This document shows positions 58,175-64,000 of a stretch of 64,000 bases of DNA, piece after piece; position 1 is the stretch's first letter, and every line of letters begins with the position of its first letter. A model generated the notes under the pieces. That model had not been told where the DNA came from. It saw only the letters and a program-made list of their open reading frames with translations, and searched no databases. Both the position numbers and the translations under genes were made by a program. This DNA comes from an uncultured Clostridia bacterium (GTDB lineage Bacteria; Bacillota; Clostridia; Christensenellales; Borkfalkiaceae), in contig CALVHS010000052.1 in NCBI GenBank assembly GCA_944328665.1, positions 1-64,000 of the forward strand. The letters run 5' to 3'.

Positions 58175-58210
58175 AAAAAAAGTTCCCGATCTCTTTCGGG
58201 AACTTTTTTT
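58175..58210. terminator. Bidirectional terminator between SRP RNA and LtaS-like gene
   Basis: A 15-bp stem (58175-58189 with 58196-58210) with A7 and T7 flanks works in both directions, after the SRP RNA and after the converging sulfatase gene. Confidence 0.92.
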
Positions 58211-60648
58211 CATGCGATCTTTACGATCAGCCCGTCGATCTCTCTGTCTCGGAAATAATCGTATTTGTACATGCGCTCCAGCATGTCCTGCTTCTCGTAA
58301 TAGCCGCTCGTCTTGCGCAAAAAGGCGTTGACGCCGTCCGAAAGATACTCAGCCCCGTCCTCCTCGGATCCCGAGACGAGGAAGATCGCATCCAGATCGA
58401 ACACGATATGATCTTGCTGCGGCGTGCAATAGATAAGTTCTTCCGCCTCTTCCGCATCGAAGGAGACGTCCTGCCCTTCGATCTGCACGGTCACTCGCTC
58501 CCCGGTCACGCGCACCTGCCCGTCGCAGGAAAGCACGCTGCCGTCCTCCCCGCGCGAAGCGCGCAGATAGACGCGGTCGCCGTCCGAATAGATGCCGTCC
58601 GCAAACATGCCCGATTCCCGGCTGACAAAGACGGAACTCTCCTCTTTCAGGACGCTCACGCCCTGGTACAGCCCGAGATCGAAGTCATACCCCAGCAGGT
58701 CGAGGATGGTCGGCAAAACGTCAAAGGTATTGCAGTATTTTTCGATCTTCACGCCGCCGAGATTTTCCGCCGCCTCGTGCGCGAGGTCGTAATAGTATGC
58801 CCCGTCATAGACGGACGAGACGCCCGCCTCCTCGTTTTCATAGACCATCCCTTCATACAAGGTGCTTTGTACCGTCAGATCCATGCAGCTGCCCGACCAG
58901 AAAAAGAAGGGTATATTGTAGAGCGCGGTATCCCAATACTCGCCCTCGGGGATCCCCTTCATCGCATAGCTCTGCTGCGTATAATAGCAGTTGTGATCGG
59001 CATAAAAGACGAACGCGGTGTCCTGCAGCTCGCCGGAAGCGGACAGCTCGTGCAGCAGGCGGTTGATCCCCACGTCGAGATCCATGATGCCCGTCTGATA
59101 TCGCTTATAACGCAGATATACGTCGCTCAAGGCGCCCGTCTCGTCATATTGCTCCGCCTGTACGGCGAATTTTTCATCGATATATGCGGAAGGAAAACCG
59201 GTGATGCGCTCGTAATACGGTTCCAGCCCTTTGACGGAATAACGGGCGGAACGCGTCGCCTTTTCCTCTTCGGAAAGGTCTTGCGTATAGTCGCCGTATT
59301 CGGTGAGGTCGTTATAATGACCGTGGCTGACGAGAGTCATCATCATGGTAAAAAACGCCTCTCCGTCGCCGCCTCGCTCCGTCATCTCGTTTAGGTACTG
59401 CGAGATCATCTCACTGTCCCTGTCGAGGTCGTAAAACCCGCTTTTTTCATGATATCCCGCCAAACGGGGCATCGTGTCCAAAAAATGCGCGTTGTCGAAG
59501 CCATACAGGTCGGCAAACGTCTCTTCACGCCCGTAATATGAACCGACGTTGGCGTGGAAATAATTGGTCGTATAGCCGCTTTCCTGCAAGATGTTGGGCA
59601 GGCTGAAGGCAAAATCATGATCGAGCATCCCCTCTTCCGTCAAAGTCGGCACGATCTGATTTTCGGGATCGGCGGGATAGCTGCCGAGGATAGAGAGCGC
59701 TTCGGAATGGTTGGTCTTGTCCCGTGCGTAATAGTCCGTCATGGCGACGCCCTGCGTCGCCAATGCGTACAGCGTGGGCGTGTATTCTCCGTTGATCGCG
59801 TACCACTCCCCCGATTCGATGACGACGAGCACGACATTCTGTCCGTTCAGGCTGCCCGTCATGAGCTTATCGTTCCCCCCGTACGGGCGCAAAGAAGAAT
59901 GCATGCGCGAATCGGCAAAATAATCGTCCAAAGCAGAAAGATTGTTCTGCAAGTCCTTTTCTTTTTCTTCCTCCGTCATCTGCGGGTCGACTTGTACGAA
60001 ATTGGCAATATTTTTATAATAGAAGCCGAACGTGCCAAACTTTTTGAACGCCTTTGCCGAAATGAACTGTGTATCGTAGAGATACGAATCGTCTTTATAG
60101 ATAAAAAGTTCGTCGCTCGGCGAGGTGGTCGCAAAGGAATCAAGCGCGATATAATAGAGGTTAGACGCCGTGCCCGACGTGAGACAGAAGATGAAGAGGA
60201 GCATGACGACCGTCTGCAGGCGGAAACTCTGCTTCGCTTTCAGCTTTTTCAGCCGCGCCAAAACGAAACATTCCGCCACAAAGACAAAGAGCAGCCCCGT
60301 AATGAAGAGATAATCGAGAAATTCATTGGTAAAGACGCCCCCCACCTCGTTGAGCAGGTTGAGCATGTTCAGGCTGAACACCATGTTGCTCATGCCGTAG
60401 AGGGATTCGTTGACGATGGAGAGCGCGACCTGCAAGACGAGCATGGCGCAGATCATGACCGTCTGCGCGCGGAAACTCGGCACGACGAAGATGATCGCCG
60501 CCAGGAAGAACAAAATGGCAAGATCCAGCCAGAAATACGTAGGGAATATGCCGATGCCCATCGTGTTGAAGGTGATAAATTCGATGAGCAGGGCGTTCAG
60601 TATATAACTTCCCGTATACAGGGATTTTTTCAGCAGCAGACTGTGCAC
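58210..60648 (-). CDS. LtaS-family (lipoteichoic acid synthase-type) membrane sulfatase-fold enzyme
   Basis: 812 residues: five or so membrane helices in the first ~190, then an external alkaline-phosphatase/sulfatase domain. VVIESGEWYAINGEYTPTL holds the metal-site Glu, ARDKTNHSEAL the nucleophile Thr, and FYADHNCYY the last metal pair. The family polymerises glycerol-phosphate or adds phospho-head groups to envelope glycans. Length exceeds S. aureus LtaS (~646), mainly by C-terminal additions. GTG start with AAGGA upstream. It lies 37 bp after lysC with no clear promoter. Confidence 0.9.
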   Translation of the reverse strand: MHSLLLKKSLYTGSYILNALLIEFITFNTMGIGIFPTYFWLDLAILFFLAAIIFVVPSFRAQTVMICAMLVLQVALSIVNESLYGMSNMVFSLNMLNLLNEVGGVFTNEFLDYLFITGLLFVFVAECFVLARLKKLKAKQSFRLQTVVMLLFIFCLTSGTASNLYYIALDSFATTSPSDELFIYKDDSYLYDTQFISAKAFKKFGTFGFYYKNIANFVQVDPQMTEEEKEKDLQNNLSALDDYFADSRMHSSLRPYGGNDKLMTGSLNGQNVVLVVIESGEWYAINGEYTPTLYALATQGVAMTDYYARDKTNHSEALSILGSYPADPENQIVPTLTEEGMLDHDFAFSLPNILQESGYTTNYFHANVGSYYGREETFADLYGFDNAHFLDTMPRLAGYHEKSGFYDLDRDSEMISQYLNEMTERGGDGEAFFTMMMTLVSHGHYNDLTEYGDYTQDLSEEEKATRSARYSVKGLEPYYERITGFPSAYIDEKFAVQAEQYDETGALSDVYLRYKRYQTGIMDLDVGINRLLHELSASGELQDTAFVFYADHNCYYTQQSYAMKGIPEGEYWDTALYNIPFFFWSGSCMDLTVQSTLYEGMVYENEEAGVSSVYDGAYYYDLAHEAAENLGGVKIEKYCNTFDVLPTILDLLGYDFDLGLYQGVSVLKEESSVFVSRESGMFADGIYSDGDRVYLRASRGEDGSVLSCDGQVRVTGERVTVQIEGQDVSFDAEEAEELIYCTPQQDHIVFDLDAIFLVSGSEEDGAEYLSDGVNAFLRKTSGYYEKQDMLERMYKYDYFRDREIDGLIVKIA

Positions 60649-60685: not shown

Positions 60686-62008
60686 CTATTTTTCAAAAAA
60701 TTCATGATAGATCGCGCGGACGCCGCGTTCATAATCGGCATTGTCGATGCCGACGATGATGTTCAGCTCGCTCGATCCCTGGTCGATCATGCGCACGTTG
60801 ACGCCCGCTTCGGAGAGGGCGGCAAAGAGGCGCGCGGACGTGCCGATGCTCTTTGCCATGCCGTGCCCCACCGTCGCCACCAGCGCGATGTCCTCGGACA
60901 CGCGGATATAGTCGGGCGCAAGCTCTTCGCGCATCGCCGCGATCAGCCGTTCGAGCACGCCCCCCTGCAAATATCTGCTTTCGATGACGAGGGAAAGGGT
61001 GTCGATGCCCGAAGGCATGTGTTCGAAATTGATCCGCTCCCGTTCGAGGATGGAGAGCGCCCTGCACGCGAAACCGATCTCGCTGTTCATCAGCGATTTT
61101 TCCAAAAAGATGACGGTGAAGTCCTTTTTGCCCGCTATGCCCGTGACGGTATTGCCGTGCGGCGTATACTTTTTGGAAGGCAGGATAAGCGTTCCGGCAT
61201 CCTCGGGGCGGAATGTGTTTTTGATCTTGATGGGGATATCCCCCTTGCGCACGGGGAAGATCGCCTCCGCGTGCAGCACGTTCGCCCCCATATACGAAAG
61301 CTCGCGCAGCTCCTTGAAAGAGATGAGTTCTATCTTCTGCGGATTGCCGACGATATGCGGGTCGCATGCGAGAAAACCGCTTACGTCCGTCCAGTTTTCG
61401 TATACGTCGGCGTTGACGGCGCGCGCCACGATCGAGCCGCTGATGTCGCTGCCGCCGCGCGAAAAGGTGCGGATCTTTCCGTCTGCGCCCGTACCGTAAA
61501 AGCCCGGGATGACGGCATGCCCCGCCTCTTCCAGGCGGGACGCGATGCGCGGATATGAGCGCGCCTCGTCGAACTGCCCCCGCCCGTCAAAAAAGATGAT
61601 GTCCTTGGCGTCCACAAATTCCCAGCCGATCAGCGCCGCCATGATGCGCGCGTTGAGATACTCCCCGCGCGAAGCGGCAAAATCGGCGGAGCGTTCCCGT
61701 TCGATCCCCGCCTGCGTCTCGTCGAGGATGCGCCCGATATCGAGATCCAGCCCCAACTCCTCCACAATGGAACGGAAGCGCTTGCGTATGGCGGAAAACG
61801 CCTCGCCGCAATGCCCCGTCGCGATACATTCTTCGCTGCTCGCATACAATAGGTCCGTGACCTTGACGTCCCCGGAAAAGCGCTTGCCGGGCGCAGAGAC
61901 CACTGCAAATCGCCTTGCGGGATCGGCAAGCAGGATCTCCGCCGCACGGCGGATATTGTTGCCGTCCGCCAGCGACGTCCCGCCGAATTTGCAAACCATT
62001 TTATCCAT
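60686..62008 (-). CDS. lysC: Aspartokinase
   Basis: 440 residues. KFGGTSLAD (7-15) opens the kinase domain and FSRGGSDISGS is the second hallmark. Two ACT domains follow (IGFACRALSILERERINFEHM; VGHGMAKSIGTSARLFAALSEAGVNVRMIDQGSSELNI), the usual feedback module. It makes aspartyl phosphate for lysine, threonine, methionine and cell-wall diaminopimelate. ATG 62008 behind AGGAGATC overlaps the DUF1015 gene by 8 bp. Which amino acid inhibits it is not evident. Confidence 0.95.
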   Translation of the reverse strand: MDKMVCKFGGTSLADGNNIRRAAEILLADPARRFAVVSAPGKRFSGDVKVTDLLYASSEECIATGHCGEAFSAIRKRFRSIVEELGLDLDIGRILDETQAGIERERSADFAASRGEYLNARIMAALIGWEFVDAKDIIFFDGRGQFDEARSYPRIASRLEEAGHAVIPGFYGTGADGKIRTFSRGGSDISGSIVARAVNADVYENWTDVSGFLACDPHIVGNPQKIELISFKELRELSYMGANVLHAEAIFPVRKGDIPIKIKNTFRPEDAGTLILPSKKYTPHGNTVTGIAGKKDFTVIFLEKSLMNSEIGFACRALSILERERINFEHMPSGIDTLSLVIESRYLQGGVLERLIAAMREELAPDYIRVSEDIALVATVGHGMAKSIGTSARLFAALSEAGVNVRMIDQGSSELNIIVGIDNADYERGVRAIYHEFFEK

Positions 62009-63203
62009 GTACGATCTCCTTGCCCTCCATATAATAGCGTTTTTCCGCACTCTCCCCCATAGAAAACGTCTTGCGGGGCAGACAGCCGTGCTTTTCCACC
62101 GCCGCAAACAACGCAGATTTTTCCATCCGCGGAAGCAGGACGCCGACGCAGCCGTCCTGCAAGGACAGGCGGCGCACTTCCTCTTCGCCATGGATATAGT
62201 CGACGCCGCCTCCGTTTTCCAGCAGATACGCGGCTATGTATTCGTCCGTCTTCCGCACGGCGGATGCCGCGTCCCGTCCGAGCGGCGCCGCGCACTTTTG
62301 CCCGCGGACGACGAGATATGCCTCCCCCTCTCCCTCCCGCGGGAAAGAGGCGGCAAATTTTTCGGGATCGACCCCCGTGACGACGCGGTGGATCGCCTCA
62401 AAGCGGATGCCTTCGTCATAGAGGTTGACCGCCTCCGCGAGCGCAAAGCGCGCGGGATGGAGGGCGCGCTCCTCTTCGGGCAGCCCCGCTTTGACCTTTT
62501 CCCAATACGCCTTTGCCGTCGCGAGCGAATGATTGCCGTCCCCCACCAAAAAGAGGGTGCCCTGTCCGTCCGCGAGCGAAGCAAACGCCGAGACGATCTC
62601 CTCCGCCGCGGGCACAAAATAGCCGCGCACATTGCCGCCGCCCATGTTCAGCGTAAAGTCGTACAGCTTTTCGAGGGAAGCGCGCGACGCTTTGAGCTTA
62701 CCCAAAACGCGATCTTCCCTGTCGTCGTACAGGAGCATGACGTGCGGAAATTCGAGGGGGGCGCCCTCCCGTATTTTCAGCCGCGGCGGGATGCGCTCGA
62801 CGATGGTCGCCTCGCTCGCGAGGATCTGCGCGCGGGCGCCCGCTTCATAAGAATATGCTTCGAGGTCGACGGAAATGACCAGCCCGAAGCGTGCGGGCGA
62901 AAAGGGCGTTTTCCTCTCGACGAGGACGGCTCCCGCGGGAAGGCGGCGGAAGATCCCGCCCCGCAAATATTCGTTCATCGCCCGATGGATGGCGGCGATA
63001 CGCCCCGCGCAATCCTCCGTAAGAAAGATCTCCGGAAGGGTCAGGCGGAGCGTCGAGGGCGCCCGGCCGACAAAGCGGCCGAGTTCTTCCCAATAGGCGG
63101 GATCGGAAGTATGTTGGTCGCAGGCGATGACCGCCCAGCGGCACAGATCCGTCCCTTCTTTCGGCAATAATATCTCCGGTATACGGACGCAGCAATCGTT
63201 CAT
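62001..63203 (-). CDS. DUF1015-family protein
   Basis: 400 residues. AVIACDQHTSDPAYWEEL near the start and DGNHSLATAKAYWE in the middle are the DUF1015 signatures, with LVISVDLEAY and RVVTGVDPEKFAA. Members are often next to serine or aspartate-family genes; a kinase-like role has been suggested for related proteins but is unproved here. It overlaps lysC by 8 bp and follows the CdaR-like mini-gene by 21 bp. Confidence 0.88.
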   Translation of the reverse strand: MNDCCVRIPEILLPKEGTDLCRWAVIACDQHTSDPAYWEELGRFVGRAPSTLRLTLPEIFLTEDCAGRIAAIHRAMNEYLRGGIFRRLPAGAVLVERKTPFSPARFGLVISVDLEAYSYEAGARAQILASEATIVERIPPRLKIREGAPLEFPHVMLLYDDREDRVLGKLKASRASLEKLYDFTLNMGGGNVRGYFVPAAEEIVSAFASLADGQGTLFLVGDGNHSLATAKAYWEKVKAGLPEEERALHPARFALAEAVNLYDEGIRFEAIHRVVTGVDPEKFAASFPREGEGEAYLVVRGQKCAAPLGRDAASAVRKTDEYIAAYLLENGGGVDYIHGEEEVRRLSLQDGCVGVLLPRMEKSALFAAVEKHGCLPRKTFSMGESAEKRYYMEGKEIVHG

Positions 63204-63224: not shown

Positions 63225-63338
63225 TTAGCAGTTGGCGACGATAAAGACGACGACCGCCAGCGCGATCGCCAGCAGCTTGATGGGGATGTTATCGATGAAG
63301 ACGCCCGCAACTTTGCGCCAAAATCCCTTTTCACGCAT
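63225..63338 (-). CDS. 37-residue YbbR/CdaR-like membrane anchor
   Basis: 37 residues: basic start MREKGFWRKVAGV, then IPIKLLAIALAVVVFIVANC and a stop. It occupies the place of cdaR after cdaA and resembles the N-terminal membrane helix of YbbR proteins (KLLSLLLAI type), but the external YbbR repeats are absent. GGGAGGAG lies upstream, and its ATG shares one base with the cdaA stop (TAATG), so translation is coupled. It could be a true small partner of CdaA or a reduced gene. Confidence 0.75.
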   Translation of the reverse strand: MREKGFWRKVAGVFIDNIPIKLLAIALAVVVFIVANC

Positions 63339-64000
63339 TATTTTCTCCTCCCTTCCGTTCCGCTGAGGTCTTTCCAGTAATAGTCGCTCAGCGTCTTTCT
63401 GAGCAGGTCGTAATCGGCATAGCGGGAGATCTTGCCCCGCTGCGCGATGGTGATGATGCCCGTCTCTTCGGAGACGATGAGGGCGACGACGTCGCTCGTC
63501 TCCGTGATGCCGATGCCCGCGCGGTGGCGGGTGCCGAGTTCTTTGGGGATATTCGCGTTCTGCGTCAGGGGCAAAAAGCACCCCGCCGCGCGGATCTTGT
63601 AGCCGTTGATGACCATCGCCCCGTCATGCAGGGGGGCGTTGGGGAAAAAGATGCCTTCGATCAGCTGCGCGGAGATGTAGGCGTCCATCACCACGCCGCT
63701 TTCGAGCACCTGCCGCGGAAGATTGTCGCCCGCAAGGATGATGAGCGCGCCGACATTGTCTTTGGACATGTTTTGCAGGGCGCGGATGATCTCGCCGATG
63801 ATGCGCTCGGCCTCTTCCCGCGTGACGTGCGGCGGGCGGTCAGGCTCCTTGGACAAAAATTTTGGCGTATTGAGGTTGATGTTGAGGATGTCCCGCTTGA
63901 CCTCGACATTGAAAATGATCATGACCGCCGCCGCAAAGACGATGGGAAAGACGAGGAAGGCGTACCCCGGCAATTTTTCGTTGCCGACAAAGATGACGCC
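63338..64000 (-). CDS. cdaA: Diadenylate cyclase CdaA, 5' end outside window
   Basis: 220 residues are visible; the gene continues past the right edge, where more membrane helices are expected. The end of a membrane helix (AFLVFPIVFAAAVMII) leads to the DAC domain with PLHDGAMVI and GTRHRAGIGITE, the DGA and RHR motifs that bind ATP and metal. It joins two ATP into c-di-AMP, which controls potassium and cell-wall balance. Ends GRRK followed by TAATG coupling to the mini-CdaR gene. Confidence 0.95.
   Translation of the reverse strand, partial: GVIFVGNEKLPGYAFLVFPIVFAAAVMIIFNVEVKRDILNINLNTPKFLSKEPDRPPHVTREEAERIIGEIIRALQNMSKDNVGALIILAGDNLPRQVLESGVVMDAYISAQLIEGIFFPNAPLHDGAMVINGYKIRAAGCFLPLTQNANIPKELGTRHRAGIGITETSDVVALIVSEETGIITIAQRGKISRYADYDLLRKTLSDYYWKDLSGTEGRRK

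Follow-up and report, generated by a model that had tools for sequence, protein, structure and literature searches.

A predicted anchor-only variant of the cyclase regulator CdaR encoded directly after cdaA in Candidatus Borkfalkia and related families

The window analysed here, a stretch of 64,000 nucleotides from a Candidatus Borkfalkia MAG (1.81 Mb, 92% complete), carries an open reading frame of only 37 codons directly after the diadenylate cyclase gene cdaA. The question raised by this locus is whether so small a frame is a gene and whether its product, here called mini-CdaR, could stand in for the CdaA regulator CdaR. Loci, genomes, genera and families are designated by L, G, g and f numbers, respectively, where they have to be told apart.

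The mini-CdaR gene and its neighbours

Mini-CdaR (63338..63225, minus strand) is a single-pass membrane protein of 37 amino acids with the sequence MREKGFWRKVAGVFIDNIPIKLLAIALAVVVFIVANC and is a homologue of the CdaR membrane anchor. Its start codon (ATG) and the cdaA stop codon (TAA) overlap as TAATG, and a strong ribosome site, GGGAGGAG (63345..63352, minus strand), is located within the 3' end of cdaA just upstream of this start. In the list of starts read, the site is near-identical across nearly all of the genus. The predicted topology is N-in, C-out, with a basic cytoplasmic tail, one helix (approx. residues 18–36) and 1 to 4 residues outside, and the frame ends with a clean stop where the external part would begin. 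Both the strong ribosome site coupled to cdaA and the small frame making an anchor only, as claimed in the original prediction made for this locus, are borne out. No Pfam match to the external YbbR repeats (PF07949) was found in mini-CdaR, and no family was assigned to the mini peptides in Pfam and NCBIfam scans. A SpoIIM match of one mini peptide was below the cut-off and was taken as a hydrophobic match.

The cdaA gene itself (63338..64000, minus strand) encodes a DAC domain (PF02457, E 1.9e-39), and its 5' end is located beyond the window. The best NCBIfam match of this 5'-incomplete gene is TIGR00159 (CdaA), below the whole-protein cut-off; the whole cdaA on L001/L054 encodes three predicted transmembrane (TM) helices and the DAC domain. 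The gene after mini-CdaR encodes a DUF1015 protein (62001..63203, minus strand; PF06245, E 1.3e-50) and is followed by that of a LysC-like aspartokinase (60686..62008, minus strand), which was named from its sequence and not by a family scan. The best match to glmM (415 bits, below the curated cut-off) is encoded on another contig, so that glmM is not the next gene in the cdaA operon; the gene order DUF1015 and lysC instead of glmM had been read correctly. Further downstream of the cdaA cluster and on the same strand, an ORF of 812 amino acids (58210-60648, minus strand) resembles, by eye, a membrane sulfatase of the lipoteichoic acid synthase type. The c-di-AMP riboswitch (RF00379) had no match in the source genome, and the PstA/DarA receptor (PF06153) was found in none of 40 genomes of the genus.

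Mini-CdaR is a real gene under strong purifying selection. The same frame of 37 to 39 amino acids, with the same overlap and a clean stop, was carried by each of the 51 cdaA loci first collected from the genus (34 distinct sequences). Among these 34 sequences, the mean pN was 0.11, the mean pS 0.74 and the mean pN/pS 0.16. Variability at the three codon positions was 0.11, 0.05 and 0.38, respectively, the third position thus varying approximately eight times as much as the second. The remaining two reading frames of this strand showed the reverse pattern (pN > pS). Invariant residues are M1, W7, R8, A11, G12, F14, I15, D16, N17, P19 and K21. A sequencing error or MAG artefact is ruled out by the occurrence of the gene in well over 100 genomes.

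Relationship to the membrane anchor of CdaR

In the order, full-length CdaR starts with anchors such as LQAVKRWLKDAFTKNIGLKIGALFFAFLLWAFVMAEQNP. When an HMM built from 26 of these anchors was run against the 1370 six-frame segments of the window, mini-CdaR was ranked first (E 0.0011), the next segment having an E-value of 0.48. In profile-profile comparison, the CdaR anchors matched a broad set of mini proteins with a probability of 97.3% (E 2e-11) and the genus-only minis with 89.9%. The helix of mini-CdaR is short (20 residues), and part of this similarity could be generic hydrophobicity; the controls argue against this, since column-shuffled minis reached at most 29.4% and TM segments of CdaA at most 14.6%. 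In the reverse direction, a blind search of 341 genomes of the class with a profile of mini proteins only retrieved mostly the N-termini of long ORFs, which are full CdaR proteins, and 24 of the 26 out-of-family loci checked were Pfam YbbR. Of the weak short-frame matches outside the order, five regions were examined, none of which contained cdaA.

Since anchor HMM, profile-profile comparison and reverse search agree, mini-CdaR is identified by homology as a truncated CdaR, of which only the cytoplasmic tail and the TM anchor are left, as had been supposed. Like cdaR, the mini-CdaR gene is located directly after cdaA, and both proteins share a short cytoplasmic tail, one TM helix and the pattern N-x-x-x-K-[LI]-x-[AS]-L-x-x-A. 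Mini-CdaR differs from CdaR/YbbR (PF07949) in the absence of the external YbbR repeats and in size (32–75 residues, never longer than approximately 75, versus roughly 320–510), and glmM is not the next gene in its operon. Literature searches for a truncated YbbR or such a small membrane protein returned nothing, most subscription papers being outside their coverage. What mini-CdaR adds to a known regulator family is a new and widespread form reduced to the anchor.

Distribution, origin and loss

In each of the 34 genomes read from the genus, the gene directly follows cdaA, and the search among relatives suggested in the original prediction located it in most of the other genomes read from the family as well. 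In other genera of the family, a one-helix ORF of 32 to 46 amino acids followed cdaA in 19 of 20 loci of a first set (all except L107), and mini-CdaR was present in 38 of 40 loci of a second one (all except L218 and L255), making a total of 57 of 60 genomes. L255 was at first scored as a match and rejected on reading the DNA. The diverged peptides of genera g2, g6, g7, g9 and g13 were accepted by position, length and a single TM helix, not by the N..K motif. Mini-CdaR is also encoded in six more families of the order (f9, f18, f19, f20, f29 and f32; loci L152 and L153 were read by eye) and is a trait of a large clade of gut bacteria, not an oddity of the source genome.

YbbR (PF07949) was detected neither in the source genome nor in 40 genomes of the genus or 201 genomes of the family (18 genera), in a search that detects it in B. 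subtilis and other controls. Throughout the order it is encoded in 100 of 297 genomes, and a full-length CdaR (417–447 amino acids) follows cdaA in ten loci from seven families. The original prediction had named a full YbbR protein at this place in relatives, or a frame that is not conserved, as evidence against itself. The frame is conserved and genus and family are free of YbbR, but the same place is occupied by a full YbbR CdaR in families of the order that are further away, which shows from what mini-CdaR originated.

In a tree of 65 CdaA sequences, the loci with full CdaR form a clade (100/100), and the distribution of full, mini and no CdaR needs four changes; five are needed in a tree of 125 sequences (quick method, midpoint root). 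The deep backbone of these trees is weak, and f30, f20 and f9 are on long branches. The simplest reading is one ancient truncation, which would have been followed by several losses and one fusion, with the losses located in one multi-family clade, in genus g11 of f1 and in one g16 genome of f1; mini-CdaR was possibly lost in f30 too. Since it is missing in 15 genomes of one clade and in three more lineages, mini-CdaR is dispensable in some contexts.

Nothing similar to CdaR was found after cdaA in families f3, f6, f8, f10, f14, f16 and f24, in most of which DUF1015 is encoded next to cdaA or a short way from it. Most mini-CdaR loci and most CdaR-less loci have DUF1015 as the following gene, and it was not found adjoining full cdaR in the ten loci read. 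In the CdaR-less multi-family clade (L154, L155, L159, L160, L162-L169 and L275-L277), where no CdaR of any size follows cdaA, the DUF1015 gene frequently begins at the cdaA stop or overlaps it, and CdaA TM1 has mostly lost the aromatic/basic motif at its end. Separate losses inside lineages otherwise keeping mini-CdaR were seen at L107 and L218 (both g11), L255 (g16) and possibly L150 (f30).

Fusion to CdaA and proposed role

In three genomes of f32 (G333, G447 and G345, all g98), mini-CdaR is encoded in frame before TM1 of CdaA (L278, 851-1945, plus strand; L279, 1-1038, minus strand; L280, 755-1801, plus strand). The CdaA frame begins with MDRTPAQNVNTKDNAFVRMMKAIFVRDLRFKILAVVIGGLLWLVTVGLGVADS and continues into TM1 with no stop between and, in L278 and L279, no internal methionine. 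The mini HMM matched the three fusions with E-values of 4e-12, 2e-9 and 5e-9, and no separate mini gene follows cdaA in the two genomes whose 3' side was read. In two of the three, the first ATG is preceded by TTGAAA-17-TATAAT-7-ATG, a consensus match only; with the promoter consensus 7 bases before the ATG, the message would be leaderless. In the fusion, a C-out mini-CdaR is joined to an N-out CdaA (three TM helices, DAC domain inside), so that both topologies are kept. AlphaFold modelled the helices of the fusion well and placed the mini helix with low confidence (pLDDT approx. 48–62), its packing in the model being unreliable. A natural fusion with matching topology supports mini-CdaR as a membrane subunit of CdaA. 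Streptococcal CdaA-CdaR fusions have been reported (UniProt A5LQF8 and others; PMC10243994), which likewise unite cyclase and regulator in one chain; there, CdaR as such is fused, whereas the f32 fusion contains the anchor only, at the N-terminus of CdaA.

It is by their TM domains that CdaR and CdaA contact each other (PMC10243994, PMC8573169), and mini-CdaR would keep just this part of CdaR. The function of CdaR, and how it controls CdaA, is still an open question (PMC8573169, PMC10243994); an insertion in ybbR leads to higher c-di-AMP in S. aureus (PMC11520302). We consider it probable that mini-CdaR is the cytoplasmic tail and single TM helix left after the ancestor of a multi-family clade lost the YbbR repeats, and that it is a small subunit of CdaA. 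It would insert N-in/C-out, pack against the TM helices of CdaA, with TM1 as the likeliest contact, and set the assembly or stability, and hence the output, of the cyclase. Having no external domain, it would be unable to sense the cell wall, which full CdaR might do, and any input would have to come via the membrane; a constant TM subunit of CdaA is the most likely mechanism, input through the bilayer being possible. Its conservation beside cdaA and the natural fusion lend indirect support to an action on CdaA within the membrane, and we infer that mini-CdaR may regulate c-di-AMP synthesis. Single helices of 30 to 60 residues that are encoded for, and bind to, a larger membrane protein include KdpF, CydX and AcrZ. 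No homology to these is claimed, and mini-CdaR differs from them in being derived from a larger known regulator.

A serious contender, with somewhat less than an even chance, is that mini-CdaR assists CdaA in the membrane as a chaperone or in assembly, affecting its level, its insertion or the geometry of the dimer, instead of regulating it in response to a signal: no sensing domain remains, the overlapping start couples mini-CdaR to cdaA, and the fusion turns it into a constant fourth TM helix. By sequence, such a role is inseparable from regulation. That mini-CdaR is a small membrane protein independent of CdaA (e.g. for DUF1015 or the envelope) and merely located in the cdaA operon is unlikely. 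DUF1015 is indeed next in most mini loci, but it also adjoins cdaA in the clade from which mini-CdaR has disappeared, and mini-CdaR follows cdaA even where the stretch examined had no DUF1015 match (g2, g3 and L111 of g17). Moreover, mini-CdaR has its homologue in the CdaR anchor, and its fusion partner is CdaA and not DUF1015.

Its truncation and its outright loss in several lineages would fit a decaying, functionless cdaR remnant that is kept only because it is recent. This is very improbable in view of the low pN/pS (0.16) in the genus, the retention across seven families after, most simply, one origin, the clean start, stop and ribosome site in almost every locus, and the fusion to CdaA in one lineage. 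We give still less credence to a spacer or leader that couples downstream translation and whose peptide sequence is irrelevant; the start does overlap cdaA, but the codon-position pattern reveals selection on amino acids, and the fused form has no such role.

The very long retention of mini-CdaR and its fusion to the enzyme suggest that the helix alone is probably the working part of CdaR. It is rather likely that CdaR without its whole sensing domain has survived, for the age of the multi-family clade, as a TM subunit of the c-di-AMP cyclase of 35 to 45 residues. If so, the functional core of CdaR would be its membrane helix, and CdaA would be controllable inside the bilayer. The working part of CdaR would most obviously be looked for in its large external YbbR repeats; mini-CdaR predicts that the anchor alone acts on CdaA. 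One order offers a natural deletion series (full CdaR, anchor only, anchor fused to CdaA, nothing), and mini-CdaRs of 35 to 45 residues are ready-made constructs for testing the action of the anchor on CdaA.

The end of CdaA TM1 changes in correlation with the loss of the peptide, which points, suggestively only, to TM1 as the contact of mini-CdaR. A tyrosine four residues before the TM1 end is present in 10 of 10 CdaA proteins from loci with full CdaR, 29 of 40 with mini-CdaR and 0 of 14 with neither, and the peak hydropathy of TM1 is 1.94, 2.27 and 2.76, respectively; both differences were seen post hoc and comprise three independent losses only, with which a sign test cannot reach significance. 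One exception is G102 (L255), which has lost mini-CdaR yet retains the aromatic TM1 end.
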